Shown here: one piece after another, positions 9,136 through 23,469 of the stretch
How positions within the stretch are numbered: position 1 is the first letter of the stretch
Layout of the letters: each line of letters opens with the position of its first letter
NCBI GenBank assembly: GCA_027486415.1
Contig: JAIXPC010000002.1
Location: 806,001-870,000, forward strand
Origin: Sphingomonadales bacterium
Lineage (GTDB): Bacteria; Pseudomonadota; Alphaproteobacteria; Sphingomonadales; Sphingomonadaceae
Direction of reading: 5' to 3'
Length of the DNA: 64,000 nucleotides
Position numbers and translations under genes: made by a program
The notes under the pieces: generated by a model
Seen by the model: the letters and a program-made list of their open reading frames with translations, nothing else
The model's database searches: none
What the model was told of the DNA's origin: nothing

Positions 9136-9138
9136 CGC

Positions 9139-9170
9139 TTGACTCCGTATCGTGGTACGGAGGCTATACC
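9139..9170 (+). promoter_or_regulatory. MerR-type promoter/operator for the copper operon
   Basis: A -35 element TTGACT (9139-9144) and a -10 element at 9164-9170 (ctatac/tatacc) are separated by 19-20 bp, longer than the usual 17. The spacer holds the inverted repeat ctccgta (9143-9149) and tacggag (9156-9162). Overlong spacers with a central dyad are the hallmark of MerR-family activated promoters. The -35 begins 4 bp from the regulator's start codon, so the regulator probably also controls itself. Confidence 0.85.
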
Positions 9171-9204
9171 GCAGCGACTCGCTGGCCTGCAAAGGAGAAA
9201 CGCG

Positions 9205-9957
9205 ATGGACGCCCAACTGCCCCGCACCGCGCGCCTGGTTCGCATGGCGCTGCCCGATCATGTCTGCCCGTGGGGCCTGCGCGCCCGCCACCTGCTGAAA
9301 AGCCATGGCTATGCCTTCGAGGAAGAACTGCTGACCAGCCGCGAGGCGGTGGAGGCATTCAAGGCGGCCGAGGGCGTGAAGACGATGCCGCAGGTGTGGA
9401 TCGCCGGCACCCGCGTGGGCGGCCACGACGATCTGCGACGCTGGCTGGGGCTGACGCTGCATGATCCCAAGGCCATCACCTATCGCCCGGTGATCGCGCT
9501 GTTCGGCATGGCGGCCGCAATGGCGCTGGCGCTGAGCGTGGCGGTGATGGGCACGCCGTTCACGCTTCACGCCGCCGAATGGTTCATCGGCATCGCCATG
9601 TGCCTGCTCGCCTTCCTGAAGCTGAAGGATATCGAAGGCTTCGTCACCGGCTTCATCGGTTATGACCTGCTGGCGCGGGCCTGGCTGCCCTATGCCTATG
9701 TCTATGCATGGGCGGAGGGCGCGGCCGGGGTGCTGATGCTGTCGGGCCAGCTGGTGGGCCTCGCATCGGCCATCGCGCTGTTCATCGGTTCGGTGGGGGC
9801 GGTATCGGTGGTGAAGGCGGTGTATGTCGAGCGGCGCGAACTGACCTGCGCCTGCGTCGGCGGTGGCAGCAACGTGCCGCTCGGTTTCATCTCGCTCCTG
9901 GAGAATGTGACAATGATCGCAATGGCTTTCTGGATGGTGGCGGCGCACGGGATTTGA
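9205..9957 (+). CDS. Glutaredoxin-MauE/DoxX fusion membrane protein
   Basis: 250 residues. Residues 1-85 form a glutaredoxin-like domain with a single-cysteine CPWG site (PDHVCPWGLRARHLL) and the cis-proline loop KTMPQVWIAG. Residues 95-250 hold about four membrane spans of the MauE/DoxX type, with CACVGGGSNVPLG near the end. A strong ribosome binding site (aaggag, 9192-9197) fixes the start. It is first in the operon and shares a TGATG junction with copA. I infer a membrane redox or thiol function serving periplasmic copper proteins; this is not established. Confidence 0.75.
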   Translation: MDAQLPRTARLVRMALPDHVCPWGLRARHLLKSHGYAFEEELLTSREAVEAFKAAEGVKTMPQVWIAGTRVGGHDDLRRWLGLTLHDPKAITYRPVIALFGMAAAMALALSVAVMGTPFTLHAAEWFIGIAMCLLAFLKLKDIEGFVTGFIGYDLLARAWLPYAYVYAWAEGAAGVLMLSGQLVGLASAIALFIGSVGAVSVVKAVYVERRELTCACVGGGSNVPLGFISLLENVTMIAMAFWMVAAHGI

Positions 9958-11921
9958 TGATGATGATGCGCCTGCTGCTCCTGATCCTTGCCCTGTTCGT
10001 GCCCGCGCTGGCGCGTGCCGCCACCTACGACCTGGTGGTGGAGCGCCAGAAGATGCAGGTGGTGCCCGGCCGCACCGACAGCGTGATCGCCATCAACGGC
10101 AGCGTGCCCGGCCCGACCCTGCGCTTCAAGGAGGGCGAGGAGGCGGTAGTGCGCGTCACCAACCGGCTGGACGCCACGACGTCGATCCACTGGCACGGCC
10201 TGCTGGTGGATGGGCCGCACGATGGCGCGCCGGGGTTCAACGGCTTCAAGGGCATCGCGCCCGGCACCACCTACACCTATCGCATCAAGGTGCGGCAGAG
10301 CGGCACCTATTGGTACCACGCCCATTCCGAAGGCCATGAACAGGCCGGCCAATATGGCGCGCTGATCATCGCGCCCCAGGGCGACGATCCGATCAAGGCG
10401 GATGCCGAGCATGTGATCCTGCTGTCGGACCACACGCGCGAAGACCCCGGCCAGGTGATGAAGAACCTGAAGGCCGACAGCGGTTATTACAACTGGAACA
10501 AGCGCACCCTGCCGGAACTGGCGCGCGACGCGAAGAAATTCGGGCTGAAGGCGACGCTGGCCGAGCGCCGGGCCTGGGGCGACATGCGGATGGACGCCAC
10601 CGACATTGCCGACGTCACCGGCTATGCACTGTTGATGCACGGCAAGCCGACGGCGGCGGGGCCCACCCTCGCCTTCACGCCCGGCCAGCGCGTGCGCCTG
10701 CGCTTCATCAACGGCAGCGCCATGAGCTTCATGGACATCCGCATCCCCGGTGTGCCGATGACGATCGTTGCCGCCGATGGCCGCCCGGTGCAGCCGGTGA
10801 CCGTGGACGAATTCCGCATGGGCGTCGCCGAAACCTATGACGTGATCGTGACCCCGCCGGCCGGTGCCCATGCCCTGTGGGTGGAAACGCTCGACCGCCG
10901 CGCCAGCGTGCTGGGCCGCCTGACCAGCGATCCGGCGCTCAAGGTCACGGCGCCCCCGCCGCGGCCGAAACAGGTGCTGTTGCTGGCCGAGATGGGCCAT
11001 TCGATGCCCGCGCCCGGGGAAGCGTGCAGCGCCGAACATGCCGCGATGGGCCATTGCACCGCCTCTCCCCTCCCGCCTGCGGGAGGGGCCGGGGGTGGGT
11101 CTGCCGATCCGGACTGCCCGCCGGAACATGCCGCGATGGGCCATTGCACGCCCAAAACGCCGGCCGTTGCGGCAAGCGATCCAGACTGCCCGCCGGAACA
11201 CGCCGCGATGGGCCATTGCACACCGAAATCCGCCGCATCCCCCTCTGGCCCGCGTGTCGGCACGGCAGTGGCGCTGGCCGAAAGGCCGGCGGGCGGCACG
11301 CCCTTCCCGGTGGTCGACTATGGCTATGGCAAGGATCCGATGGTCGGCATGGACCACAGCAAGATGGCCGGCATGAACATGCCGGTGCTCGGCAAGGAAG
11401 GCGATACCGACGGGTCGGGCCGCGTCTTTGGCTGGGCCACCGGCGCGCCCTATGGCGCCCGCGTGCTGTCGATGCGTGATCTGGTGGCGCTGGAACCGAA
11501 GGACGCCGCCCCGCCGACGCGGGAGATCGTCGTGCGCCTGCAGGGCAACATGGAACGCTATATCTGGACGCTCAATGGCAAGAAGTTCGGCGAAGGCCCG
11601 CCCATCGACGTGAAATATGGCGAGCGCGTGCGCGTCACCTTCGTCAACGAGACGATGATGGCCCACCCGATGCACCTGCACGGGATGTTCTTCGAGGTGG
11701 AGAACGGCCAGGCCCCCGGCCTGATGCCCGAAAAGAACGTCATCGTTGTCGCGCCGGGCCGCACCCAGTCGATCATCCTCACCGCCAACGAGGCCGGCGA
11801 ATGGCCGCTGCACTGCCACCTGCTCTATCACATGAATTCGGGCATGATGCAGAAACTGGTGGTGGCCAATGTGCTGGGCCCGGATGGCAAGGCCGTGCCC
11901 ACGGCGGGGCATGTCCATTGA
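9957..11921 (+). CDS. copA: CopA-type multicopper oxidase
   Basis: 654 residues with a Sec signal (MMMMRLLLLILALFVPALARA). All copper ligand motifs are present: IHWHG near residue 77, YWYHAHSEGHEQ near 118, HPMHLHG near 570 and HCHLLYHMNSGM near 619. Periplasmic CopA oxidises Cu(I) and confers copper tolerance. Residues about 358-422 hold three Cys/His/Met-rich repeats (core EHAAMGHC), probably copper-binding, with a GC-rich palindrome inside the coding sequence between units one and two. The homologues I know carry a Tat signal; here the leader lacks twin arginines. The TGATG junctions on both sides imply coupled translation. Confidence 0.92.
   Translation: MMMMRLLLLILALFVPALARAATYDLVVERQKMQVVPGRTDSVIAINGSVPGPTLRFKEGEEAVVRVTNRLDATTSIHWHGLLVDGPHDGAPGFNGFKGIAPGTTYTYRIKVRQSGTYWYHAHSEGHEQAGQYGALIIAPQGDDPIKADAEHVILLSDHTREDPGQVMKNLKADSGYYNWNKRTLPELARDAKKFGLKATLAERRAWGDMRMDATDIADVTGYALLMHGKPTAAGPTLAFTPGQRVRLRFINGSAMSFMDIRIPGVPMTIVAADGRPVQPVTVDEFRMGVAETYDVIVTPPAGAHALWVETLDRRASVLGRLTSDPALKVTAPPPRPKQVLLLAEMGHSMPAPGEACSAEHAAMGHCTASPLPPAGGAGGGSADPDCPPEHAAMGHCTPKTPAVAASDPDCPPEHAAMGHCTPKSAASPSGPRVGTAVALAERPAGGTPFPVVDYGYGKDPMVGMDHSKMAGMNMPVLGKEGDTDGSGRVFGWATGAPYGARVLSMRDLVALEPKDAAPPTREIVVRLQGNMERYIWTLNGKKFGEGPPIDVKYGERVRVTFVNETMMAHPMHLHGMFFEVENGQAPGLMPEKNVIVVAPGRTQSIILTANEAGEWPLHCHLLYHMNSGMMQKLVVANVLGPDGKAVPTAGHVH
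11028..11222 (+). repeat. Three Cys/His/Met repeats in copA, with an embedded palindrome
   Basis: The core gaacatgccgcgatgggcc occurs three times within this span (twice exactly, the third with cacgcc), each encoding EHAAMGHC after a nearby cysteine. Units two and three are 72 bp apart, units one and two about 90 bp. The longer gap contains cccctcccgc-ct-gcgggagggg (11067-11088) followed by ccgggggtgggt. That stretch is translated in frame as a Pro/Gly-rich linker and resembles dispersed intergenic palindromes of Proteobacteria. Confidence 0.85.
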
Positions 11922-12619
11922 TGCGCACCGCCCTGATCGCCGCCGCGCTGCTGGCGGCACCCGCCATGGCGCAGGACCGCCACGGCCATGGTGATGCCAT
12001 CAACAATTTCACGCTGGTGGAAGAAGCCGACATCACCCGCTTTGACGGCAAGTGGGTGGCGAACTGGGAGGTGCAGGGCTGGATCGGCGGCGACCTCAAC
12101 AAATTCTGGTGGCGCACCGAAGGCGAAACCAAGGGCCCGCGCCTGGAACAGAGCGAATTCCAGGCGCTCTACAGCCGCAACATCGCCACCTTCTTCGACG
12201 CGCAGGTGGGCCTGCGCCACGATATCCAGCCCGATGCCCGCAGCTATGCCGTGGTCGGTGTGCAGGGCCTGTCGCCCTTGTTCTTCGAAACCGAAGCCCA
12301 CGCTTTCTTCGGCTTCAAGGGCGACGTGCTGTTCCGCCTGCGCCAGTCCTTCGATCTCAGGATGACCAACCGTTTCGTCATCCAGCCTTTGTTCGAAACC
12401 GATATCTACGCCACGCGGGTGCCGGAACGCCTGATCGCCCCCGGCCCGGCCATCATCGAAGCCGGCGTGCTGACCCGTTACGAAATCACCCGCCGGGTCG
12501 CGCCCTATGTCGCGGTGATGTTCGAGCGCCGGCTGGGCGAATCCTCGCGGCTGGCGCGGGTCGCCGGCGAGAATCCGGGTGGCTGGTCGGTGCGGACCGG
12601 GGTGCGATTCTGGCTGTGA
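11921..12619 (+). CDS. copB: Copper resistance outer-membrane protein CopB
   Basis: 232 residues with signal peptide MRTALIAAALLAAPAMAQ, followed by a short His-containing segment (DRHGHGDA). The rest is a CopB-type beta barrel: WWRTEGETKGP, then LYSRNIATFFDAQVGLRHD, and a C-terminal strand ending in FWL as outer-membrane proteins do. CopB works with CopA in copper sequestration or efflux at the outer membrane. The Met-rich N-terminal repeats of Pseudomonas CopB are absent; here that role may have moved to the repeats in CopA. It overlaps copA by one base. Confidence 0.9.
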   Translation: MRTALIAAALLAAPAMAQDRHGHGDAINNFTLVEEADITRFDGKWVANWEVQGWIGGDLNKFWWRTEGETKGPRLEQSEFQALYSRNIATFFDAQVGLRHDIQPDARSYAVVGVQGLSPLFFETEAHAFFGFKGDVLFRLRQSFDLRMTNRFVIQPLFETDIYATRVPERLIAPGPAIIEAGVLTRYEITRRVAPYVAVMFERRLGESSRLARVAGENPGGWSVRTGVRFWL

Positions 12620-12660
12620 GGCAACGCCCCGCCAGCACAAACCGGCCTTTGAAAATATTG

Positions 12661-12716
12661 GCACGGCCGTGCCGAAACAGCAAATGCCTGAATGCACAGC
12701 TTAACTGGCATTTGCT
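12661..12716. promoter_or_regulatory. Two inverted repeats between copB and the ten-gene operon
   Basis: A perfect 12-bp palindrome gcacggccgtgc lies at 12661-12672. Perfect 10-bp arms agcaaatgcc (12679-12688) and ggcatttgct (12707-12716) follow around an 18-nt loop. No T-run follows, so a simple intrinsic terminator is not obvious. The second pair could be a regulator site or a structured RNA upstream of the promoter at 12735. Nothing else is visible in the gap. Confidence 0.5.
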
Positions 12717-12734
12717 CGGCGTGAAAAACAGTTA

Positions 12735-12762
12735 TTGACGCCAAAAAACGACTCAATACACT
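12735..12762 (+). promoter_or_regulatory. Sigma-70-like promoter for the ten-gene operon
   Basis: TTGACG (12735-12740) and TACACT (12757-12762) are separated by 16 bp. They lie about 50 bp upstream of the first start codon at 12814. The region is AT-rich against its GC-rich surroundings. It is the only good promoter-like pair I see for the operon, whose later genes are closely packed or overlapping. Confidence 0.5.
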
Positions 12763-12813
12763 ACGGGTCATCAGTACAGGGTCGGGCTGACAAGCACCAC
12801 GGTGGGGGGCGCT

Positions 12814-13914
12814 ATGGACAGTCTTTCTTCTGGTGCGGCCGCAGTGGCCGTGGCCAATTCGAACTCTGTTGCCGATCTTCAAGACAGAACTTCATGCGAT
12901 CTGGTTGTCATCGGCCCCGGTCGCGCCAGTCCGCGTGCCGCCTCGGTCCTGGCCGATGCGCTCGGCCTGCCGATCGAGGCTGTGGTTGATGCCATCTACC
13001 GCGCGCCCGGTCGCCTGGCCGGCGGGCTGACGGCGGCCGATGCCGAAACCCTGGCCGGCATGCTGGCACCGCTCGGCCTTGATCTGGCCGTGCTGCCGGC
13101 CGGAACGCTACCCCGGCGCGGCGCGCTGCGCGATGTGGCGGCCGAACTCGTTGATCCCGATGCCGCCGATGCGGTTGCCGCCGCGCTCGGGCGCTTTGTC
13201 GGGATGGAGGCTGAAGCGGCCCTCGATCTTCTGCTCACCCCGCCCGGCATCATCCTGGGCAATGTCACGCCGCCCACCGTCGCGGCGCTGGCGGCCGCAC
13301 TGCCGTCCGGCGCTGTGCGGCTGCTGGAGGTGGAGCCTGATGCCGCGCGTTATGCCCTGTTCGCAGCCGGGTTGACGCCGGTTCAGGCCAGCCTGCTGCG
13401 CGGTCACCTGCCGCCCGGTGCCGCCATCGGGGCCGATGGCAGCGCCCTGCTGCTGGGCCTGTCGCGCAGCGAGGCGGACGCGCTGTGGCGGCGGCTGCGC
13501 GCACCGGAAAAGGTGCGGCTGGTGCCAGAGCCGCTGCTGCGCTTTGGCATCCTGCTGCACCAGGTGGCACCAGACGCCGCCGAGGCGCTGGAGCGGTTGG
13601 CCGGGGTGCCAGCGGCGGATTTCGCGCTGGTCGCCGCCGCCCTGCCGCTGCCGGTTGAAAGCGATCTGCCGCTGGCCGGGCTTGATGCCAGGCTTGCCGC
13701 CTATGCCGAAGCCGGGCTGGCGGTGACCGCCGAGCTGGAAAGCTTCGCGCCCGTCGTGCTCGAATTGCTGTCGGCCAGTCCCGAAGCGCTGGCCGCGGCC
13801 GGCCTCACCGGCCCAGCGCCCATTGCAACCCCGCCGCTGTGGCGCCCGCGCGCCCGCCTGCTGCGCCATCGGCTGGAGGCGGCGGGCGCGGAAGTGGTGG
13901 AGGCAGCAGCATGA
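12814..13914 (+). CDS. Repeat protein of unknown function, first gene of the ten-gene operon
   Basis: 366 residues, no signal peptide or membrane span. Start ATG 12814 follows a ggggggc ribosome binding site; GTG 12802 is in frame but overlaps that site. The protein seems built from four or five degenerate modules of about 65-75 residues. The clearest, residues 30-94, reads ADALGLPIEAVVDAIYRAPG, then LTAADAETLAGMLAPLG, and looks like the alpha-beta fold of the ribosomal L7/L12 C-terminal domain. Later modules show similar hydrophobic spacing (LLLTPPGIILGNVT; LLLGLSRSEADALWRRL). That comparison is by eye. It overlaps the next gene by 4 bp. Confidence 0.7.
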   Translation: MDSLSSGAAAVAVANSNSVADLQDRTSCDLVVIGPGRASPRAASVLADALGLPIEAVVDAIYRAPGRLAGGLTAADAETLAGMLAPLGLDLAVLPAGTLPRRGALRDVAAELVDPDAADAVAAALGRFVGMEAEAALDLLLTPPGIILGNVTPPTVAALAAALPSGAVRLLEVEPDAARYALFAAGLTPVQASLLRGHLPPGAAIGADGSALLLGLSRSEADALWRRLRAPEKVRLVPEPLLRFGILLHQVAPDAAEALERLAGVPAADFALVAAALPLPVESDLPLAGLDARLAAYAEAGLAVTAELESFAPVVLELLSASPEALAAAGLTGPAPIATPPLWRPRARLLRHRLEAAGAEVVEAAA

Positions 13915-14477
13915 CCATCGATCCCCGCCACCGCCTGCACATCGGCATTGCCGAGGCTGGCAAGCTGCTGGCCCTGAAGGGCCGCCACCAGCAGGCGCTG
14001 GCCAGGTATCGCGAGGCGCTGCAGCTGGCGCACGGCGCGCGCGCGCCGCAGCTGTTTGCCCGCCATTATCTCCATTGCGTGCTCGAAAGCCTGGAGCATC
14101 TGGGCGATCACGCCCGCGCCGCCGAACTGGCTGCCGCTGCCGCCGATACCGCCTCCTGCCCTGATCCGACCCCGTTCCAGAAACGCGATCGTGCCCATCT
14201 GCTCGAACGGCAGGGAGTCAATCTGGCGCTGGCCGGCGACATTGCGGGCGCGCGGTCGGCGCTGGCCGATGCGGTGGCGCTGGATGACGGACTGCCGCTG
14301 GCCCGCGCCATCCTCGACTGGACGGCGCGCGGCCTTGCCATCAACCCCCAGCGCCTTGCCGACGCCCAGCGCAAGCATGGCTATTGGGTGGTGCGCGCCG
14401 ACACGGTCGATCCGGCCCGCGCGCTTGAAAGCCCGCACGCTCACACTGCCCCCCTGATGGAGACGATCCGTGGCTGA
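13911..14477 (+). CDS. Small TPR-like helical protein
   Basis: 188 residues, apparently cytoplasmic. The spacing of alanines, leucines and small residues in EAGKLLALKGRHQQALARYR and in LERQGVNLALAGDIAGARSA matches tetratricopeptide helices; three or four repeats fit into residues 8-140. TPR proteins usually scaffold protein assemblies. It overlaps its upstream neighbour by 4 bp (ATGA) and the next gene by 8 bp, so it is a translationally coupled member of the unknown operon. The last 40 residues show no recognisable motif. Confidence 0.7.
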   Translation: MTIDPRHRLHIGIAEAGKLLALKGRHQQALARYREALQLAHGARAPQLFARHYLHCVLESLEHLGDHARAAELAAAAADTASCPDPTPFQKRDRAHLLERQGVNLALAGDIAGARSALADAVALDDGLPLARAILDWTARGLAINPQRLADAQRKHGYWVVRADTVDPARALESPHAHTAPLMETIRG

Positions 14478-16248
14478 TGAAAATCCGATCGAGAAACTGC
14501 GTCCCGGCCAGATCCTCGCCGACAGCGCGGTGACCGATTACATCAAGGCGATGGGCATCGCGATTGCCGAAGCCCAGATGCAGCTGGACATCAACAGCCT
14601 GCGCCAGGTCGGCGAATATGCCCAGCCGCGCGAGGGGCTGGACAACAAAAGCCTGCTGCAGCTGGGCCTGTCGCCGCCCTTCTATCATTACCAGCATGCC
14701 GATCTTTCGGTGTCGATGCAGATCGTGATGAAGATCGGCGAGCAGACGGCGTGGGGCATCGGCGGGAAGGCCGAATTCGGCATGGATACCGGCGGCCCGG
14801 TCGGCGCGGCCTCTGCCCGGCAAGCGCAGGTGAGCGTGAAAAGCCTGCCCGCCAGCGTGACGGTGGACGGCAAGAAGACCGACACGACCGGCACCGATTT
14901 GGAAGCTGGCGCGGAGCAACTGGCCGCCGCCCTGCGCGCCGGGCCGTTCGAACGCGCCTTTGCCGACACGGAACGCAAGCCGGTGACCGCAGCGCTGGAG
15001 CCGGCAGCAGCAAAGAACCCGATCCTGACATCGAACGCCGTCGCCTTCCTCAAGCCCGCCGAGACCAGTGTCGGGGTGATCCGCATCCAGCAGACGCCAG
15101 CACCACCGCCGGCGGACGGCGAGACGTTCAAGCTGAACACCACCCGATCCGTCACCGTGACGGGCGCTGCCAACCGCACGCTTTATGCCCGCAAGGTGGT
15201 GGAGGCGATCAACGGCACCGACAAGTTCAAGGCCCGGCTGATCAACGATGCCGGCGGCGACAGCACGGCGCCCGATGCACCGGGATCGATGGTCATTGCA
15301 CTGTTTGACACCGACAAGTGGGATATCAAGCGAGAAGCCCGCGAAGAGCTGGATCTTGCCGCCGCAGCCATCAAGGCGGGCAACTTCACCGTCAACATCA
15401 AGGGTTATGCGGACAAGCGCGGCGAACCCGGAGACAATCGGGTATTGGGGCAGAAGCGCGCCGATGCCGTTGCCAAGTACCTGGCCGGCAAAGGTGTGTC
15501 GCGCGACAAGATGAAGGCCGAAAGCGGCGGCGAGGACCGCTGGAATGGCGTGCCCGTCACCACGAACAATCAGCAGTTCCGCCGCGCCGAAGTGCTGTTG
15601 CCGGGCAGCACTGATCTCATCATCCTGGTTGAGGACAAGGGCGAACAGCTGGAGGGCGCCGCGCCCGACACATCTGGCGGCGGGGCGGGCAATGGCTTCC
15701 TTTTTGCCCGAAAGTTCGATGCGCTGCCCATTGACGGGACGACGGTGAAACTGGGCGCAGCCGCCACCAGCGTTGCCATCAAGAAGGATGCGGTGAACGA
15801 CAGCGGCACGACGTTCGCCGAAGGCAGCCCGGAAGCCTGCGCCTTCAACCTGGCGCGCGACATCAACGCCGCCACCGCCACCCACAAGGTGCGCGCGACC
15901 CGCAACGGCGCCATGGTGGTGCTGGCCAATGCGGATGATGCGGTGGTGATCGACCTGGTCACCCTGTCGGCCAACGACATCAAGCTGGAGGCGGGCGGCG
16001 GCGCGACCGTCACCAAGCCGCTGACCGGAATCAAGGCAAATGCCGACGCGCCCAAGGAAAAGACGCGGTACACCTTCGCCGCGGCCATCACCGCCGATTA
16101 CCGCACCAGCCGGCAGTTCGAACAATCGGTCAACGGCAACAGCTCGATCAGTGCGCGGCTGGTGTCTGTCCCGGCGCCGGTGGAGTTTCTGGACGAACTG
16201 AAGACCTATCTCGGCCAGATCCCGCAACCGCGCCAGCCGCAGGGCTGA
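14470..16248 (+). CDS. Shared-domain protein split by an OmpA-like insertion
   Basis: 592 residues from a GTG start (8-bp overlap; upstream ggag at about 14459). Residues 20-85 hold the first half of the operon's shared domain (AIAEAQMQLD at 31, LGLSPPFYHY at 65). The second half appears only at residues 535-592 (SARLVSVPAPVEFLDEL near 561). Between them lie two beta-rich modules (LYARKVVEAINGTDKFKARL and FNLARDINAATATHKVRA). These flank an OmpA/MotB-like domain at about 278-380 (NIKGYADKRGEPGDNRVLG, then KRADAVAKYLAGKG). OmpA domains normally bind peptidoglycan in the periplasm, but no signal peptide is present. Function unknown. Confidence 0.75.
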   Translation: MADENPIEKLRPGQILADSAVTDYIKAMGIAIAEAQMQLDINSLRQVGEYAQPREGLDNKSLLQLGLSPPFYHYQHADLSVSMQIVMKIGEQTAWGIGGKAEFGMDTGGPVGAASARQAQVSVKSLPASVTVDGKKTDTTGTDLEAGAEQLAAALRAGPFERAFADTERKPVTAALEPAAAKNPILTSNAVAFLKPAETSVGVIRIQQTPAPPPADGETFKLNTTRSVTVTGAANRTLYARKVVEAINGTDKFKARLINDAGGDSTAPDAPGSMVIALFDTDKWDIKREAREELDLAAAAIKAGNFTVNIKGYADKRGEPGDNRVLGQKRADAVAKYLAGKGVSRDKMKAESGGEDRWNGVPVTTNNQQFRRAEVLLPGSTDLIILVEDKGEQLEGAAPDTSGGGAGNGFLFARKFDALPIDGTTVKLGAAATSVAIKKDAVNDSGTTFAEGSPEACAFNLARDINAATATHKVRATRNGAMVVLANADDAVVIDLVTLSANDIKLEAGGGATVTKPLTGIKANADAPKEKTRYTFAAAITADYRTSRQFEQSVNGNSSISARLVSVPAPVEFLDELKTYLGQIPQPRQPQG

Positions 16249-16252
16249 TCCG

Positions 16253-16720
16253 ATGTCGGACGTCTCCCGCGTCACCAACCAGCTGCTGTCGGCGCCGCTG
16301 CCGCAGATCATCGAACGGCTGGGCATCGCCATCGCCGAAGCGCAGACCGCGCTGGATCGCAACAGCATCCAGGTGGCGCAGGCGATGGCCGAAACCGAGA
16401 TCGAGCTGGGCGGCGAGCGCACCAACCTGATCGCGCTGGGTTTCACCCCAACCTTCTACAGCTTCACCGAGGCTACGGTGGAGGCAAAGCTCAGCTTTTC
16501 CATGCAGGAAACCACCGAGACGAAGGTGGAAGCCGGGCTGAAGGTCGAGGCCGGCTATGCGTTTGTCATGGTCGCCGCATCGGTGAACGTATCCTATGCG
16601 CGCAAATTTTCGGTGGGGGCCGAGGGCATGAGCAGCATCGCTGCGCGCCTTGTATCGCTGCCGCCCCCCGAACTCCTTGAAACCCGCCTCAAGGCCATGG
16701 CGGACAAGGCCAACCCGTGA
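16253..16720 (+). CDS. Shared-domain protein, minimal form (155 aa)
   Basis: The shortest and least decorated copy of the operon's shared domain. Order of elements: amphipathic helix with LLSAPLPQIIERLGIAIAEA (residues 11-30), LGFTPTFYSF (62-71), a beta-rich middle (VEAKLSFSMQ onward), then SSIAARLVSLPPPELLETRL near the C-terminus. No signal peptide or membrane span. It lies 4 bp after the preceding gene. Because it shows the domain without insertions, it is the best query for family searches. I do not know its function. Confidence 0.75.
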   Translation: MSDVSRVTNQLLSAPLPQIIERLGIAIAEAQTALDRNSIQVAQAMAETEIELGGERTNLIALGFTPTFYSFTEATVEAKLSFSMQETTETKVEAGLKVEAGYAFVMVAASVNVSYARKFSVGAEGMSSIAARLVSLPPPELLETRLKAMADKANP

Positions 16721-16740
16721 TCTGAAAAAGGAGACTGACG

Positions 16741-17520
16741 ATGGCAATCGGACAGGAACTGCTCAACGTCCCCATGGGCGACATGATCCGCCAGATGGCC
16801 TTTGCCATCGCCGAGGCGCAGGTGAAGCTGGATGCCAGCAGCATCGAGGTCGCCGAGATGATGGGCGGCCTGAAGACGGTGCAGGACGAGGACGGCAAGC
16901 AGACCTTCGACGACAGCCGGGTGTTCTTCGGATACGAGATGATGACGGTGAAGGAGGCCGAGGCATATCTCGCCGCGGACGAAGCCATTTCAGGCGGCGA
17001 CAAGACCGCGCTGACCACATTGATCAGCAGCCAGAAAAGCGCGCTGCCGACGGAGGAACGGGCCACTGGCCTCATTCGTGTACCGACCCGCGTGTCGATG
17101 CTGGAACTGGGCTTCTCGCCCACTTTCTACCAGTTCGTCGACACCATCATCGAGGTGAAGATCGCCATCAAGATCACCCGCACGGTGGAAACGACGCGCA
17201 GCCGGCGCGATACAGCGTCGGCCAACGCCTCGTCGAAAACCACGGCGGCGCGCTTCGGCGTCGGCTTTGGCAGTGTCGGTGCGCGCTTTGGCACCAACAG
17301 CAACAGCCAGGCCACCACCAGCCAGGTCGATGCCAGCTACTCGGCGAAATACAGCTATTCGGCCGAAGGTTCCTCCCTGCTCCGCACCAAGCTGGTGCCG
17401 CTGCCTCCGCCGCCGATCCTTGAAGAACGCATCCGCCGCCTGCTCGACGAGGAAAGCGCGCGGCGCACCAAGGCGCTGGAAACGGAACTCGCCAAGCCCG
17501 TCACGCCCACTCCGCCCTGA
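16741..17520 (+). CDS. Shared-domain protein (259 aa)
   Basis: The start is supported by aaaggaga at about 16727-16734. The protein opens with QELLNVPMGDMIRQMAFAIA (AIAEAQ at 22-27) and has LGFSPTFYQFVDTIIEVKI from about residue 123. It ends in YSAEGSSLLRTKLVPLPPPP near 203-222, then a charged helix. An extra segment of about 60 residues (EMMTVKEAEAYLAADEAISG) separates the first two elements. It is closest to the next protein (181 aa): both share PTFYQFVDT and AEGSSL-RTKLVP-PPP, suggesting a recent duplication. Function unknown. Confidence 0.75.
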   Translation: MAIGQELLNVPMGDMIRQMAFAIAEAQVKLDASSIEVAEMMGGLKTVQDEDGKQTFDDSRVFFGYEMMTVKEAEAYLAADEAISGGDKTALTTLISSQKSALPTEERATGLIRVPTRVSMLELGFSPTFYQFVDTIIEVKIAIKITRTVETTRSRRDTASANASSKTTAARFGVGFGSVGARFGTNSNSQATTSQVDASYSAKYSYSAEGSSLLRTKLVPLPPPPILEERIRRLLDEESARRTKALETELAKPVTPTPP

Positions 17521-17562
17521 TCGTAACCCGTCCCTACTGCCCTCAGCATGGAGTGACAGACG

Positions 17563-18108
17563 ATGAGCGTTGGAACCGAGCTTCTGTCGGTGCCCTTTCC
17601 CGAAATGGTGCAGCGCCTGGGTGTCGGCATCGCCAATGCCCAGTTGCAGCTTGATCTCGTCTCCCTTCGCATCGCCCGCCTGATGGCCGGTTATGACGAG
17701 GAGGCGGAGGTCAAGAAGGAGGGCGATGGCGTCAAGTCCAAGAATTACCTCGTCAAGCTTGGCGACGGCCAGGAATACAGCCTGATGGAGCTGGGCTTCA
17801 CGCCGACATTCTACCAGTTCGTCGACACCGTGATCGAACTGAAGATGTCGATCAGCGTGTCGAGCGAGACCGAGATCAAGCGCGAGGCCAAGTCGAGCGT
17901 GACTGCCGGCGGCGCGGTGTGGACGCCCTTTGGCGGCGGCGGTGCCATCCGGTCGAGCAGCGTTTCAGCCAGCTTTTCGGCCAAGTATCAGTACAGCGCC
18001 GAAGGATCATCGCTGATGCGGACCAAGCTGGTGCCGATCCCGCCACCGGCGCTGTTTGAAGAGCGGGTGCGCGCCCTGATCGCCGCGCGCACGCCGCAGG
18101 TGCCCTGA
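17563..18108 (+). CDS. Shared-domain protein (181 aa)
   Basis: Begins SVGTELLSVPFPEMVQRLGV with GIANAQ at 22-27, then ELGFTPTFYQFVDTVIELKM from about residue 76, a Gly/Ser-rich loop (AGGAVWTPFGGGGAIRSSS), and YSAEGSSLMRTKLVPIPPPA from about 145. It is the closest paralogue of the preceding gene but lacks its 60-residue insert. A ggag at about 17551 precedes ATG 17563. The 42-bp gap before it is the longest in the operon. The beta-strand pattern suggests a structural or assembly role, which is inference. Confidence 0.75.
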   Translation: MSVGTELLSVPFPEMVQRLGVGIANAQLQLDLVSLRIARLMAGYDEEAEVKKEGDGVKSKNYLVKLGDGQEYSLMELGFTPTFYQFVDTVIELKMSISVSSETEIKREAKSSVTAGGAVWTPFGGGGAIRSSSVSASFSAKYQYSAEGSSLMRTKLVPIPPPALFEERVRALIAARTPQVP

Positions 18109-18111
18109 ACC

Positions 18112-18936
18112 ATGGCGCAGCCGCCGTGGAAGGACGCGCTGGTGCGGGCCAGCCGGGGGCCAGCAGCGCCAGCCCCGGCCGCCGCGCCTGCCCCGGCCGC
18201 TGCGCCGCCGCCGCTGGAGCGCGTGGCGGCAGCAGCGCCCGGCCTCCAGCACCTGCTCGACGAACGGCGCGCGCTGGAACAGCGCATCTTGGGCCTGACT
18301 GGCGGCGCGGCTGATGATCCGCGCTATGCCGTAGAACCTCTTGATCAGCGCCGAGCTGCGCTGGCGGCGTGGGGCCAGTCCCGCGATGCGATGCGCGACG
18401 GACGGCGCAACCCCGCCGCGGCCTTCGCCCCGCAGGCGCCGCCGTTGCGGGGAACCGCCGCCGATACGCTGCGCGCCACCGCAGCCGATGCTCTGCGCGC
18501 CACGCCGGGCGAATTGCTGGCCGAGGCCCGGCCCACCCGCCTGTTTGAACGGTTCGAACGGCCCGCGCCCACCGCCAATGCTGATCCGCTCGATCGCCGG
18601 CTGGCGCGGGCGCGCGATATGGCGGCCCGCGCCCGCCGCACGCTGGATGCAGCCGAACGCCCGCTGGATCAGGCGCGCGACGCCATTCCGCGCGACTGGC
18701 AGCAACGGGCGCGCGATCGCATCCCCGGCCTTGGCAAGAACGATCATTATGTCCGCGAAAGCGCGCGCAAGCTTTCGGTGCTGGTGGGCAGCATCGACGA
18801 GATCGGCACGAAGGCCGACCGGCTGCGCGGCCTGGCGCGCGACATGCGCGAACTGAAACAGGCCGACGAGGCCGGTGACGAGGCCCGGCGGGAACGGGCG
18901 CTGGAACGGCTGCAGGCCAAGCGGCGCGAAGCGTGA
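18112..18936 (+). CDS. Ala/Pro-rich, helical protein of unknown function
   Basis: 274 residues without the shared domain. The first 45 residues are a low-complexity Ala/Pro stretch (PAAPAPAAAPAPAAAPPP). Most of the rest is predicted by composition to be charged helix (LARARDMAARARRTLDAAER; ERALERLQAKRREA). A short motif repeats at TAADTLRATAADALRATPGE. No signal peptide or membrane span. It starts 3 bp after the previous stop and is followed by a strong gggggagagg site for the next gene. It may be a linker or scaffold subunit; I do not recognise it. Confidence 0.65.
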   Translation: MAQPPWKDALVRASRGPAAPAPAAAPAPAAAPPPLERVAAAAPGLQHLLDERRALEQRILGLTGGAADDPRYAVEPLDQRRAALAAWGQSRDAMRDGRRNPAAAFAPQAPPLRGTAADTLRATAADALRATPGELLAEARPTRLFERFERPAPTANADPLDRRLARARDMAARARRTLDAAERPLDQARDAIPRDWQQRARDRIPGLGKNDHYVRESARKLSVLVGSIDEIGTKADRLRGLARDMRELKQADEAGDEARRERALERLQAKRREA

Positions 18937-18951
18937 TGGGGGGAGAGGTGC

Positions 18952-19626
18952 GTGTCTGATCCGGTTGATTTCGTCGACAACAGCATCGGGCAGTTGCTCG
19001 TCGCGCTGGCCGATGGCGTGCGCGAGGCAGAGCGTGCGCTGGCCGCCGGCCCGCAGATGGACGATAGCGGCCGCGCCGTCACCCGTTATGCGCTGCCGTA
19101 TCTGGATTTCAGCATCAACGTGGATGTGGAGGTCGCCACGCCGCCCCCTGCCGGTGGCGTGAAGGGCCTGCCAGTGCTGCGCCTGTTCACCGTGCCGGTT
19201 CACCGCGCCAGCGACAATCGCGAGATCCGGTCCAGCATGTCGGGCCGGCTGGTGGCGGTGCCGGCTGGCGAAGGCCTGCCACTGCCGCGCATCCGGCTGA
19301 CGCCCGGCCCCAATATCGAGGGCAGGGCCGCGATCGGCATCGCGGTCAGCAACAGTGCCGGGGAAGTGCTTGCCGGCCAGCCGGTGGAGCTGAACATCGA
19401 TCACCGGGCCAGCGAGACTCTGTCAAAGGCGCGCGGCGTGCCGACTCTGCCGCGCCGTGACGGCACCAGGCTGGCCGCCGGCATCGTCACCACCGATGGC
19501 GAAGGCCGCGCCACCACGGCGCTGCTGATTGATGCGGACGAACCCGCCCGCGCCCTCATTGTCGTCACCGCCAGCATCGGGCCCTGGTCCGCCCAGGCGA
19601 CGATCAGCGCCGAGGTGCTGGGATGA
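18952..19626 (+). CDS. Divergent shared-domain protein with Ig-like C-terminal domain
   Basis: 224 residues from a GTG start with ribosome binding site gggggagagg. Residues 5-110 look like a drifted copy of the shared domain: helix IGQLLVALADGVREAERALA, strand-rich LPYLDFSINVDVEV, and SSMSGRLVAVPAGEG near residue 95 in place of RLVxxPPP; the PTFY motif is lost. Residues 120-224 resemble a bacterial Ig-like domain of the Big_1 type (GEVLAGQPVELNI, then GIVTTDGEGRATTALLI). Such domains usually act in adhesion or assembly. The ATGA overlap with the next gene shows tight coupling. Confidence 0.68.
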   Translation: MSDPVDFVDNSIGQLLVALADGVREAERALAAGPQMDDSGRAVTRYALPYLDFSINVDVEVATPPPAGGVKGLPVLRLFTVPVHRASDNREIRSSMSGRLVAVPAGEGLPLPRIRLTPGPNIEGRAAIGIAVSNSAGEVLAGQPVELNIDHRASETLSKARGVPTLPRRDGTRLAAGIVTTDGEGRATTALLIDADEPARALIVVTASIGPWSAQATISAEVLG

Positions 19627-20909
19627 CGACGCCATTCACCTGGTCCGCCCGCCTGCTTGATGCGGGCGGCGCCGCCGTTGCCGGTGCTGCACTGGCTGTC
19701 GAACTGTTCGATTTGGGCAGCAACAAATGGGTGGCGCTGTCGCAGGGCACCACCGGCAGCGATGGCGGCGCGCGGGGCCGCGGCGAGATCGGCGATGACA
19801 GCCTGCCCTTTGCCCCGGCGCTGCGGCTGACCGACAATGGCGCGGTGATGGCCACCACCCCGGCCATCGCCCGCACCGCACGCGGCCTGTCGATCGATTT
19901 CAGCGAGGTGCGACGGGCCCCCGTCGCCACGCCGTTCATCCGCACGCTGGGCGGGGGGCGTTCGCCATTCAGCATCGGCGGGGGCGTGGCGGCGACCGGC
20001 ACGGCCAGCGTCGACATGGCCGCCCTGCGCACCGAGGTGAGCCGCGATTTCGGCGAACGACTGGCGGCGCGCGAGCGCGAGGTGGCCGATCGCGACACCA
20101 AGCTGGCTGAGAATGTCCGCGTGCTGGGCGAGAAGGAGGCGGAGATCAGCCGGCTTTCCGGCCTGGTGACGACGCGCGATCAGGAACTTGCCGGCCTGCG
20201 CCGGACGTTGGCCGCCACCGATGTCGCCGCCCTGCGTGCCGAGATCGACAAGGATTATGCCGAACGGCTGGCGCGGCGGGATCAGGACCTGGCGACCCGC
20301 GACGAACAGATCAGCCTGCGCGATGCGAAACTGGCCGACACCAAAGCCGCCATCGAGGAGCGCGATGGCGAAATCCGCCGGCTGACGGGCGTGATTGCGG
20401 AGAAGGACCGCATCATCAACACGCCGCGCGCCGATGCCGCCAGCGTGACGGGCGTCACCGATTTTGCCAGCACCATCGGCGTCCAGCTCGACGAGGCGCA
20501 AACGGCGCTGAAATCGCGCGGTTTCTCGCTGGGCGCCATCGAGGTCAATGCCAAGGCGCTGCTGCGCGATGATGGCCGCAAGATCGAGATTCCGGATCGC
20601 GAGGCGATGAAGACGCTGCCGCCCGGTGTGCTGGCCGATCTGAAGTTCAGCTATCGCCCCGACAAGCCGCCACCCGAGGTGACGGGCCAGACGGTGCCCG
20701 ACCTGATGTATCTCACTGAAAACCGCGCCCGGGCCGTGCTGACCAGCCTTGGCCTGATACTGGAAGCGAGCACTGGCCCGGCCGCCCTGAACGCCAATGC
20801 CGCCACCGGCCAGGCCATGCTGCAGACGCCGCCCGCCGGTGCCGATCTGCCGCGCGGTGGCCGGGTGCACGTGATCTTTGCCGCAGCCAAGGAGCAGGAT
20901 GATGGCTGA
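19623..20909 (+). CDS. Coiled-coil protein with C-terminal PASTA domain
   Basis: 428 residues. The N-terminus (1-90) resembles a transthyretin/Ig-like beta domain (FTWSARLLDAGGAAVAGAAL). A Gly-rich linker leads to a coiled coil at about 134-265, made of two similar units with a 69-residue period (ALRTEVSRDFGERLAARE at 134, ALRAEIDKDYAERLARRD at 203). Next comes a small domain with TIGVQLDEAQTALKSRGFSL. The last 70 residues (GQTVPDLMYLTENRARAVLT, then QTPPAGADLPRGGRVHVIF) match the PASTA pattern. PASTA normally binds cell-wall material outside the cell, yet no export signal is visible. Function unknown. Confidence 0.72.
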   Translation: MTTPFTWSARLLDAGGAAVAGAALAVELFDLGSNKWVALSQGTTGSDGGARGRGEIGDDSLPFAPALRLTDNGAVMATTPAIARTARGLSIDFSEVRRAPVATPFIRTLGGGRSPFSIGGGVAATGTASVDMAALRTEVSRDFGERLAAREREVADRDTKLAENVRVLGEKEAEISRLSGLVTTRDQELAGLRRTLAATDVAALRAEIDKDYAERLARRDQDLATRDEQISLRDAKLADTKAAIEERDGEIRRLTGVIAEKDRIINTPRADAASVTGVTDFASTIGVQLDEAQTALKSRGFSLGAIEVNAKALLRDDGRKIEIPDREAMKTLPPGVLADLKFSYRPDKPPPEVTGQTVPDLMYLTENRARAVLTSLGLILEASTGPAALNANAATGQAMLQTPPAGADLPRGGRVHVIFAAAKEQDDG

Positions 20910-21549
20910 CAACCCGGTTGCCGATCTGCTGGCCGAAACTGTCGCCGCGCCGCTGGGCGAGGTGATCGCCGCCGTGGGGCAGGGCGTGGCGGAGGCACAG
21001 CGGGCGCTGGACGATGCCGCGCTGGCGGCAACGATGGCGATTTACGAGGAGCAGGGCGAGGCCGGCATGACGCTGCTGCGCGAGATTGGCTATCGCCCCA
21101 CCTTCTACGTGCTGCCCGATACCGCCTGCGAGGTGCAGGTTTCGATGCGGATCGGCGGCAGCGGCGGGGCCGATGGCAGCGCCGGCACCGCGCGCCTGCC
21201 CGGCGGCATTGCCGCGCTGGGGCGGGGGCGGACCTACGTGACGCCGGTGGATGCCGGTTTCCAGCAGCGGTTCGGCTTTCAGGCCAGCGCGGCGGCCAAG
21301 CTGACCTTTCGCATCGTCCCGGTGCCGCCGCCATCGGCGCTGGACGATGCACGGCCGATGCCGGCGCTGGTCGGGCGGCTGGCGACGGAGGCGCTGGCGG
21401 TGCTCGATCGGCTGGGGCTGGCGGTGCGCCTGATCGATGGCGACGGCAAGGACGTGGCCAGTGCTGCGGGTGCCAGCGTGACAAAACAGAGCGTGGAACC
21501 GGGCCGGTTGGCGCCGCTGGGCGAAGCCGTGATCCTGACGATCGGCTAG
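20902..21549 (+). CDS. Shared-domain protein with C-terminal PASTA-like domain
   Basis: 215 residues. ATG 20902 lies 7 nt after aaggag and overlaps the upstream gene by 8 bp; ATG 20899 is one codon earlier. Residues 5-150 are a shared-domain copy: PLGEVIAAVGQGVAEAQRAL, IGYRPTFYVLPDT at 62, KLTFRIVPVPPPSALDD near 137. Residues 152-215 (MPALVGRLATEALAVLDRLG, then KQSVEPGRLAPLGEAVILTI) fit a PASTA domain. It is the only member in which both features of the operon occur in one chain, linking the two protein types. Last gene; its TAG stop is shared with the convergent gene. Confidence 0.73.
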   Translation: MADNPVADLLAETVAAPLGEVIAAVGQGVAEAQRALDDAALAATMAIYEEQGEAGMTLLREIGYRPTFYVLPDTACEVQVSMRIGGSGGADGSAGTARLPGGIAALGRGRTYVTPVDAGFQQRFGFQASAAAKLTFRIVPVPPPSALDDARPMPALVGRLATEALAVLDRLGLAVRLIDGDGKDVASAAGASVTKQSVEPGRLAPLGEAVILTIG

Positions 21550-22364
21550 GCCGTCGCCCGCGCCGGTCGCTGCGTGCCGCCCCCGGCCCGCCAGCCCAGC
21601 CAGCCGGCCAGCGCGCCGGCGGCGATGCCGGCCGATGCGGTCAGGCCCAGCGGGATCGCCGCATAGGCCTGCAGCACCGTGCCCAGCACCGGCATGTCCG
21701 GCGCGAACCACATTACCAGCGATTGCAGCGCCACGAAGCCCGCGGCCAGCAGCCAGGGCGCGCCGGTCTTGCGCTTCCGGGCATAGACGATGATGGCAAA
21801 GCCAATGGCCAGCGTGTTGCTGATCAAGATCACATCCAGCACCTGGCGCGGGCCATCGCTGCCGATGATGTTCAGCCACGGCAGAAATTGATCGATCACC
21901 CGCGAGAACGGCGATTCAAACAGGATCAGCGGCGTCGCCAGCATGTAACCGCCGTGCATCGCGATGTTTGTCCGGTGCTTCAGCGCCTTGTAAAACAGGG
22001 TCAGATAGGCGGCCAATGCGACGGCCATGCCCCAGAAGAACGATGGCCCCAGGAACAAGGAGAACGGGGTCACGGCCCGGGCATAATTCTGCGCGGAAAG
22101 ATCGATGATCAGCACGAAGCCCAGCATCAGCAGCGGGAACAGCGCAAAGCTGGCCAGCCCCAGCTGCCGGTGCAGGCCGTTGGCGCGGCGCTGGATGGCA
22201 AGGCTCTGGACGATCAGCAGCAGCAGCCAGGCCGACGAACTGAGCGCATGGACATGGAAGGTAACCGGCACATGGCCGATGGGCGACCAGTACGTCGCCC
22301 AGAAGCCGGCCAGGATGACCGCCAGCACCAGCCCCACATACCAATGCCCCTGACGATATGGCAT
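21546..22364 (-). CDS. Seven- or eight-span membrane protein of unknown function
   Basis: 272 residues from ATG 22364 (MPYRQGHWYVGLVLAVILAG), which has a gggggac ribosome binding site. The longer frame from 22388 would start inside a long inverted repeat. Hydrophobic segments recur along the chain (SAWLLLLIVQSLAI; FALFPLLMLGFVLIIDLS; FFWGMAVALAAYLTLFY). Histidines in VTFHVHALSSS, LHRQLG and NIAMHGGYML could bind heme or metal; that is a guess. The stop codon ctag is shared with the unknown operon on the other strand. No family recognised. Confidence 0.65.
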   Translation of the reverse strand: MPYRQGHWYVGLVLAVILAGFWATYWSPIGHVPVTFHVHALSSSAWLLLLIVQSLAIQRRANGLHRQLGLASFALFPLLMLGFVLIIDLSAQNYARAVTPFSLFLGPSFFWGMAVALAAYLTLFYKALKHRTNIAMHGGYMLATPLILFESPFSRVIDQFLPWLNIIGSDGPRQVLDVILISNTLAIGFAIIVYARKRKTGAPWLLAAGFVALQSLVMWFAPDMPVLGTVLQAYAAIPLGLTASAGIAAGALAGWLGWRAGGGTQRPARATA

Positions 22365-22370
22365 TGCCCA

Positions 22371-22418
22371 GTCCCCCAACCGATGCATCCGAAATCGGAT
22401 GTATCATGTTTGGGGGAC
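22371..22418. promoter_or_regulatory. Long inverted repeat upstream of the membrane protein
   Basis: Outer arms gtcccccaa (22371-22379) and ttgggggac (22410-22418) are perfect. Inner arms gatgcatccga (22382-22392) and tcggatgtatc (22395-22405) differ at one base around an aa centre. The inner dyad looks like a dimeric repressor operator. The whole could also act as a terminator for the minus-strand gene ending at 22447. The outer arm contains the ribosome binding site of the gene starting at 22364. Confidence 0.6.
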
Positions 22419-22446
22419 AGCGGCCACCGCGGGCGTGTGGCCCCCC

Positions 22447-23361
22447 TCAGCGCAGGTTGGCGATGATCGTGTCGACAAAGCTGGCCACGGCGCGGCTGGT
22501 GTCGGCCGGGGCGGGGTTGTTGTAGAGTTCGATCGAATAGACGCCCCGGAACCCCATGGCTTCGGCATCACGCACCAGCCGTGCCACGTCGAACGAGGTG
22601 TGGGCATAGGTGTCGGGATCAAACGCCAGCCCCTTGGCCGACACGATGTGGGTGACCGGCATGGCTGACAGCATGGCGTCGTAACGATCGCCGGGCGGGG
22701 CCCAGGCGCCCCAGTCCAGCTCCGCCTTCAGGAACGGATGGTTCACCGCCTTCACCAGCGCGACCAGACCCGACACGGCGGCGGTGGCCCCGCCGTGATT
22801 TTCCAGCAGCACGATGATGCCCAACTTGCGGCCATGATCGGCCATCTGGCGCAGCACGGTGATGGCGGCGGCCTGATTGAGCTCGCCGCCGCGCTGGCGG
22901 TTGACGTTGAAGCGCATCGATGAACAGCCGAGCACGCGCGCCTTTTCCAGCCAGACGATGCCTTCGGCCACGGCCTGTTTCTGATCATCGGGATCATTGG
23001 CGTCGATGCGGGCCATGTCCTCCACCTCGACGCTGACGATCTGCACGCCGGCCGCATCGGCGGCGGCACGGATGGCGCGGCATTCCTCGAAACTGTGGCC
23101 GGCAGGGCCGAACTGCTGATCCCACAGCTCCACCTTGGTGATGCCGAACCGGGCCTTCACAAAGGCCGGCAGGGTGCGGTGAGACAGTTTCGGCATCGCG
23201 GTCGCGCTGGCGAAGCGGCCTTCGTAATGGGCGCGGTAGGTCGAACTGCTGACCGACAGGCGGGCGAGCTTGCTGGCGGGATAGGGCGGCGCGGCGCGCA
23301 GGGCCTGGCCGGCCAGCAGGGCGGTGGCCGAGCCCGCTGCAAGGAAATTGCGCCTGTTCAT
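22447..23361 (-). CDS. Tat-exported TIM-barrel sugar isomerase/epimerase-like protein
   Basis: 304 residues. The N-terminus MNRRNFLAAGSATALLAGQALRAA, read in parts, is a twin-arginine signal (NRRNFL plus hydrophobic stretch). The rest is an AP-endonuclease-2-type TIM barrel: VELWDQQFG, VQIVSVEVEDMARI, LGIIVLLENHGG and a late GVYSIELYNN carry the conserved Glu and His positions of sugar isomerases. Export to the periplasm argues against a sugar-phosphate substrate; free or keto-sugars seem likelier, by inference. It follows the TonB receptor on the same strand and is probably co-regulated. Confidence 0.75.
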   Translation of the reverse strand: MNRRNFLAAGSATALLAGQALRAAPPYPASKLARLSVSSSTYRAHYEGRFASATAMPKLSHRTLPAFVKARFGITKVELWDQQFGPAGHSFEECRAIRAAADAAGVQIVSVEVEDMARIDANDPDDQKQAVAEGIVWLEKARVLGCSSMRFNVNRQRGGELNQAAAITVLRQMADHGRKLGIIVLLENHGGATAAVSGLVALVKAVNHPFLKAELDWGAWAPPGDRYDAMLSAMPVTHIVSAKGLAFDPDTYAHTSFDVARLVRDAEAMGFRGVYSIELYNNPAPADTSRAVASFVDTIIANLR

Positions 23362-23469
23362 GGCTGTTCTCCTGTGGCCGGGCGGTGATCAGGCCCGGCG
23401 GAAACGAAACTGCCCCGGATCATGGCGATGATCCGGGGCAGCAATCGTGGGCTGGTGTTGGCTAACCGA

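Follow-up and report, generated by a model that had tools for sequence, protein, structure and literature searches.

We describe here a ten-gene operon in a 64,000-nucleotide stretch of DNA, hereafter the window, from a 2.7 Mb assembly of a Sphingomonadales bacterium (GCA_027486415.1, contig JAIXPC010000002.1). Ten open reading frames (ORFs), g1 to g10, lie on the forward strand (Table 1) with successive intergenic gaps of -4, -8, +4, +20, +42, +3, +15, -4 and -8 bp when the g10 start is taken as 20902, and the gene 3' of g10 is convergent and touches it at the stop codon. Six of the ten proteins carry copies of one domain, here called D, and the gene set and its order recur in distant bacteria. 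A first-pass annotation made from the letters alone had listed the same co-directional genes, spaced by -8 to +42 bp, behind a promoter-like pair; the ORFs and gaps are recovered, and the pair is present, but a site of this kind is close to what chance would supply. An Rfam scan of positions 9000-24000 for an RNA component gave no match reaching a gathering score.

Table 1. Coordinates of the operon and its component features; positions are those of the window.
Feature	Position	Strand	Observations
Promoter-like hexamer pair	12735..12762	+	5' of g1; 1 found vs 0.7 expected by chance in the scanned stretch; weak
g1, 366 aa	12814..13914	+	N-terminal module resembling the bL12 C-terminal domain, ~12898-13095 (orthologue-profile mapping); remainder unrecognised
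g2, 188 aa, TPR-like	13911..14477	+	Best conserved among the orthologue alignments of g1, g2, g3, g8 and g9
g3, 592 aa	14470..16248	+	Shared domain split at the hairpin tip by a ~400-residue insert (AF2 model)
OmpA-like peptidoglycan-binding domain within g3	15301..15540	+	Pfam E 7.7e-15; Foldseek match with Pal, E 9.8e-9
g4, 155 aa, smallest form of the shared domain (D)	16253..16720	+	Family alignment; AF2 model
g5, 259 aa, D domain carrying an insertion following the first helix	16741..17520	+	DUF2589 E 0.16
g6, 181 aa, D domain	17563..18108	+	Family match
g7, 274 aa, no domain recognised	18112..18936	+	Relative in 38/78 loci including the window
g8, 224 aa	18952..19626	+	Drifted D domain (18964-19272), then Ig-like part
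g9, 428 aa	19623..20909	+	N-terminal region, coiled coil, Trypco2-like domain (20442-20693), PASTA (20691-20879)
g10, 215 aa	20902..21549	+	D domain and C-terminal PASTA (21358-21543); alternative ATG at 20899

The D domain is marked by a helix with an AIAEAQ/LD sequence, an LGF-PTFY segment, a beta-rich middle and a terminal RLV-PPP motif. That at least five proteins share it is borne out by the family alignment, which places it in g3 (split), g4, g5, g6 and g10, and the sixth, drifted copy that had been thought probable is the N-terminal part of g8 (hhalign against the D profile 96.2%, E 2.5e-9). The profile was built from 115 members (alignment A2), chosen mainly by removing near-copies among 140 listed of 203 single-domain matches. 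Compared with DUF2589 (PF11655) it gives an hhalign value of 94.7% (E 5.7e-8, 140 columns), where the DUF2589 profile used nine of 11 matches, from five of the six genomes with a match among 299, and where the control comparison of D with the unrelated g2 profile gives 0.5%. Against the Pfam model itself g5 reaches 12.7 bits, below the gathering cut-off of 23, and two of the 115 D members match at E<=0.01. Judged from these profile comparisons the D domain is a superfamily relative of DUF2589 and not a member of it. Compared directly with classic DUF2589, g8 gives only 22%, so that its link to that family runs through the D profile. This kinship, and the Trypco2-like domain of g9 described below, go beyond the first-pass annotation.

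No sequence in the PDB matches the A2 profile at E<=1, and our view of the fold comes from AlphaFold2 (AF2). The g4 model (mean pLDDT 73) has a helix at residues 16-47, two short strands, a long hairpin formed by residues 68-92 and 113-136, and a C-terminal helix; confidence is high at the hairpin base and falls below pLDDT 50 at the tip, an outcome that absent partner subunits could account for. Hydrophobic residues alternate with a two-residue period between residues 72 and 100 of strand 1 (p below 0.0001 by permutation) and more weakly along strand 2 (p 0.02). A Foldseek search of predicted viral proteins found one entry (BFVD A0A516MP19) that is predicted to share the g4 fold (E 2.8e-6, TM 0.60), although the D-family sequence searches of viral and phage collections described below gave no relative.

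In g3 the insert, residues 117-516, is placed by the AF2 model between the two strands of the hairpin. The OmpA-like insertion announced in the first-pass annotation is confirmed at 55.5 bits against a Pfam cut-off of 27.2. Among 41 orthologues (of 45 long copies, those that were aligned) D315 is kept in 37, N323 in 41, R330 in 40 and R371 in 41; we take these to be the peptidoglycan-binding residues. The position of the OmpA domain in the model suggests that the hairpin tips would face the wall.

The remaining proteins add what look like adapters and ligand-binding parts. Both PASTA domains noted at first pass are supported (g9, E 9.6e-6; g10, E 3.8e-6), and PASTA is found in 27 of 29 aligned g9 orthologues, out of 33. 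The domain that precedes it in g9 compares with Trypco2 (PF19631) at 94.3% by hhalign (E 1e-7) across 72 columns, almost the full length of the Trypco2 profile, which used seven of eight Trypco2 matches; other profile pairs involving the g9-domain or Trypco2 profiles give 0.1-1.8%. By Pfam directly the window domain has no match and six of the 29 orthologues match at E<=1 (best 0.018), short of the cut-off. Kinship of D itself with Trypco2 (hhalign 36% over 36 columns) or with the g9 domain (25%) was considered and not accepted. LamG stretches precede PASTA in two g9 equivalents, six of them in the one from Chloroflexota (L054 2807-7447) and three in the one from Planctomycetota (L089 11978-14902), and the part of g9 in the set may be a variable and adhesive one. 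Three earlier calls stand in part. The 'repeat protein' g1 has a bL12-like N-terminal module, in that Ribosomal_L12 is hit at E<=0.01 by 13 of the 33 orthologues and the orthologue profile matches bL12 in the PDB at E 6.2e-5, but g1 of the window alone has no match. For g2 the TPR call is weak on the window sequence alone (best E 0.012) and gains support from the profile of its orthologues, whose best match, at E 1.3e-7, is with designed TPR proteins. In g8 the Ig-like assignment is likewise weak in the window (E 0.021), but Big_1 is matched at E<=0.01 in six of 33 orthologues.

Whether the genes form a unit elsewhere was left by the first-pass annotation to a survey of other genomes, and they do. 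A scan of 84,980 species genomes with a pattern from one family found at least 89 stretches encoding a relative, of which 77 loci were kept, giving 78 with the window; D proteins are present in all 78 by design of the scan. In 28 loci including the window the genes run exactly as g1 g2 D D D D g7 g8 g9 D; by their record titles 17 of these are in Pseudomonadota and 11 in Bacteroidota. Four more are without only a detected g7, with a similar-sized ORF in its place. Relatives of g1 occur in 45 of the 78 loci, g2 in 48, g7 in 38, g8 in 47 and g9 in 55, and the detected genes share one strand in 76. Several of the remaining loci are cut by contig ends or hold a short version. Variants are found in Myxococcus (L040) and SAR324 (L083), in Latescibacterota as a cut locus (L030), in Chloroflexota in rearranged form (L054) and in Planctomycetota, where they comprise just D genes and g9 (L089). 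The loci are not all independent, since L015, L016, L017, L058 and L059 belong with same-genus copies and other near-copies exist (e.g. L021-L023). Two further arrangements are of note: a row of D genes with six matches in another genus of the same family (L137, G263:C1:3258000-3277900), and a copy in Desulfonema magnum (L068 1364-12243) in which unrelated genes, by eye including a transposase-like ORF, separate g2 from the D genes.

The set is rare in the genomes sampled. It occurs in four of 24 genomes of the same genus, with a smaller relative in two more, in four of 396 genomes of the order and in one of 299 of the phylum Pseudomonadota, the window's own genome being counted each time. In a g2 tree of 30 rows the 10 Bacteroidota rows form one clade and orders are mixed within the Pseudomonadota. 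Against the same-genus copy in genome G012 each of the ten genes has a dN/dS of 0.14-0.26, and on this one genome pair purifying selection seems to act on every gene of the set. Flanking genes compared by eye vary between loci, close relatives excepted. In the window the genes 5' of the operon resemble, we presume from reading them by eye, a multicopper oxidase and a CopB-type protein; the former (9708-11921) has three EHAAMGHC-type Cys/His/Met repeats, perhaps metal binding.

We considered, and rejected, the idea that the ten genes come from a phage or plasmid. A one-pattern scan of viral contigs found no D-domain relative, tblastn of g6 in phage records found none, and the same query in 72,556 plasmids gave one remote match. 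With a classic DUF2589 protein as the query one short phage record (30.5%) and four plasmids are matched, and on that evidence some members of the wider DUF2589 superfamily lie outside chromosomes.

At many loci there is a shorter operon, which encodes a small protein 'a', two D proteins, a protein 'd' and a coiled-coil protein 'e'. Among the 32 loci L058-L089 'a' was found in 21, 'd' in 17 and 'e' in 11, and the hosts include Pseudomonadota, Clostridia, Chloroflexota, a cyanobacterium and others. The 'd' protein is related to the N-terminus of g8 (93.6%), and the 'e' profile, considered as a possible Trypco2 relative, gives 51% with the g9 domain and 1.4% with Trypco2 directly. Haloarchaea and Methanohalarchaeum have a related set of D proteins and a g9-like protein, with 'a' located 3' of the D genes and 'e' not detected. 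The 'a' protein (L077 12880-13182 and relatives) is about 100 aa long and ranges from bacteria to haloarchaea; its hinted resemblance to a subtilisin propeptide (PDB E 1.5) is no more than a lead. In the cyanobacterial locus (L066 3831-7129) the short version is followed by a protein that by eye looks like a vWA protein, with no Pfam match, and by a second one, 728 aa long, that matches the D family and has OmpA at its C-terminus.

Cell-wall genes lie near some of these loci. Wall hydrolase domains occur near DUF2589 genes in three of six genomes (GH19 in L131 and L134, Amidase_3 in L132), and a muramidase in one of three plasmid stretches (L144). The flanks of 35 long-form loci, some of them cut, were inspected by eye and the flanking genes of six were run against Pfam, with wall domains at four loci (L034, L020, L083 and L038), a count made without a control. 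At L034 an Amidase_2 plus SH3 protein lies directly 3' of g10 and at L020 there is an SH3 domain; PG_binding_1 is present at L083, where one of two copies is above the cut-off, and, divergent, at L038. An M15-like peptidase guessed by eye at L142 and a protein annotated as 'peptidoglycan-binding protein' at L143 have no Pfam match and are not counted. The association of wall-related genes with these loci is suggestive.

The fixed set of paralogous hairpin subunits, accompanied by adapters and wall-binding domains and with no recognized enzyme, reads as the parts list of one structure. We therefore favor, tentatively and at a little under an even chance, the proposal that the operon encodes a single hetero-oligomeric peptidoglycan-binding assembly. 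The six paralogues (g3, g4, g5, g6, g8 and g10), each with a helix and a long amphipathic beta-hairpin, would pack side by side through their hairpins and so form a ring or tube, with the OmpA-like domain of g3 binding peptidoglycan at a hairpin tip. The PASTA domain of g10, and g9 with its extended coiled coil, Trypco2-like domain and PASTA, would provide further wall- or ligand-binding arms, and g1 (bL12-like) and g2 (TPR) would act as cytoplasmic assembly factors. Such a complex would be made without Sec signals and could reach the wall either by hairpins driven through the membrane or after lysis. The first-pass annotation had suggested a multi-subunit structure of mostly paralogous subunits, or a surface-linked assembly; our observations fit the former, although assembly itself is what we infer, and the conserved peptidoglycan-binding residues lend the latter indirect support, while the lack of a recognizable export signal speaks against it.

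Several observations weigh against this proposal. OmpA, PASTA and, at L054 and L089, LamG are domains that normally act outside the cytoplasm, yet a simple hydropathy scan shows no evident signal peptide or transmembrane helix. Foldseek of g4 against the PDB finds nothing at E<=0.001 (best E 0.29), and the hairpin tip has low confidence in the models of both g4 and g3. The operon in the window is without wall genes, and these are found at four of the 35 long-form loci in an uncontrolled count.

A specific role is likely for this operon, whose order is kept from Sphingomonadales to Flavobacteriales, whose genes look to be under purifying selection and which is rare in the genomes sampled. No library searched explains its function. 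It gives the DUF2589 superfamily a context and brings a second orphan domain, Trypco2, into the same operon, and the conserved peptidoglycan-binding residues, the shorter version and cultured carriers such as the environmental strain Halopseudomonas pachastrellae JCM 12285 (L021) offer handles for experiment. Should the products come together in a single assembly, that assembly would be an envelope-associated machine of a new kind. We would go further only with hesitation, and regard as possible but rather doubtful that it represents a prokaryotic nanostructure of a class not described before: a hetero-oligomer of at least six DUF2589-superfamily hairpin subunits in the shape of a ring, tube or pore, with a wall-binding tip, occurring in ten-gene form in several bacterial phyla and in a shorter bacterial and related archaeal form, and sometimes paired with cell-wall hydrolases.

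Other explanations merit consideration. The hairpins of several subunits could form one beta-barrel in the inner membrane that passes wall hydrolases or cell contents, as a lysis or killing pore, which we consider unlikely, though the best placed of the alternatives. The strong hydrophobic alternation of the hairpin and the wall hydrolases near related loci are what such a membrane-perforating device would lead one to expect, and the weak structural neighbors of g4 (50 listed, all at E>=0.29) are for the most part beta-barrel pore stems and collars of flagellar rings, with long hairpins. These matches are not significant, however, the operon of the window has no hydrolase, and the folded insert at the hairpin tip of g3, some 400 residues long, would, if modeled correctly, be hard to push across a membrane. 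Beta-barrel pore-forming proteins are marked by an oligomeric barrel to which each subunit gives one hairpin or two; the g4 model has a long amphipathic hairpin, with Foldseek matches at E>=0.29.

We think it slightly less probable again that the operon is a cytoplasmic conflict (defense) system akin to vWA-MoxR systems, in which g9 would bring a Trypco2 adapter and the D proteins would be a sensor or effector scaffold. Trypco2 takes its name from being found together with trypsin-like peptidases in conflict systems of the vWA-MoxR type (PMC7159879; PMC10907252), and the first of these papers reports PASTA and OmpA domains in some such systems; at two Trypco2 loci that we inspected a neighbor resembles, by eye, a trypsin-like protease. 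The profile match of the g9 domain (94.3%, and weakly by Pfam in the six of 29 orthologues), the sporadic occurrence (one of 299 Pseudomonadota and four of 396 order genomes, own genome included) and the lack of evident signal peptides all agree with a conflict role. But Pfam finds no MoxR ATPase, vWA or trypsin domain in the ten proteins, to which the scan was confined, and D is not convincingly tied to Trypco2 or to the g9 domain. PADLOC calls no known anti-phage system from the ten proteins and yields five weak matches only, to ZorB (the OmpA part), JetC (the coiled coil) and PD-T4-6 (best E 0.0021).

Improbable, in our view, is a released tail-like or contractile-injection-like particle, with the paralogues as ring proteins around a wall-binding hub. 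Like extracellular contractile injection systems (eCIS), the operon is a multi-gene set of signal-less proteins with outside-type domains (PASTA and OmpA, and LamG in L054 and L089), one predicted viral protein shares the g4 fold (A0A516MP19), and a remote DUF2589 relative lies in one short phage record. At a pseudomonadotal locus a 1756-aa eCIS_core plus Fic protein (L131 1771-7041) has a DUF2589 pair and a hydrolase of GH19 type for neighbors, and this neighborhood too could be read in favor of such a particle. None of the defining parts is recognized, however: Pfam, NCBIfam and PHROGs find no sheath, tube, baseplate, motor or ATPase of contractile injection systems or tailocins in the ten proteins, the OmpA part matches a PHROGs family of unknown function (E 6.9e-16) with a baseplate family only at E 0.057, and neither the one-pattern scan of viral contigs nor tblastn of g6 in phage records gave a D-domain relative. 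Gas vesicles are built of helix-hairpin-helix subunits, and an intracellular shell or inclusion of that kind would accommodate the modeled order of helix, long amphipathic hairpin and helix, the several paralogues per cluster and the relatives in bacteria and halophilic archaea, but it is very improbable, as no GvpA or accessory Gvp family matches the ten proteins in Pfam or NCBIfam and the conserved peptidoglycan-binding residues of g3 are hard to explain within the cytoplasm.

Returning to the peptidoglycan-binding assembly, we find in the scans of the ten proteins against Pfam, NCBIfam, PHROGs and PADLOC no characterized system and no recognized enzyme or motor, in keeping with the first-pass view that no enzyme is visible and no named system fits; the literature searched, which leaves subscription papers and preprints largely outside its scope, holds no description of the ten-gene operon. 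From Trypco2 systems the operon differs in that its Trypco2-like domain has a coiled coil on one side and PASTA on the other. With DUF2589 the D domain shares, judged from the alignment, a similar succession of helix, strands and C-terminal helix, and DUF2589 genes are neighbors in pairs in four of the six genomes with matches, whereas no ten-gene set was noticed on reading DUF2589 loci by eye. A paper in which DUF2589 is named notes that AF0414-AF0417 are induced on lactate (PMC3949148). From OmpA and Pal the g3 domain is set apart by the absence of a recognizable signal peptide or membrane anchor and by its predicted place in the tip of a beta-hairpin, but by sequence, by fold and in the conservation of its binding residues the insert agrees with them.

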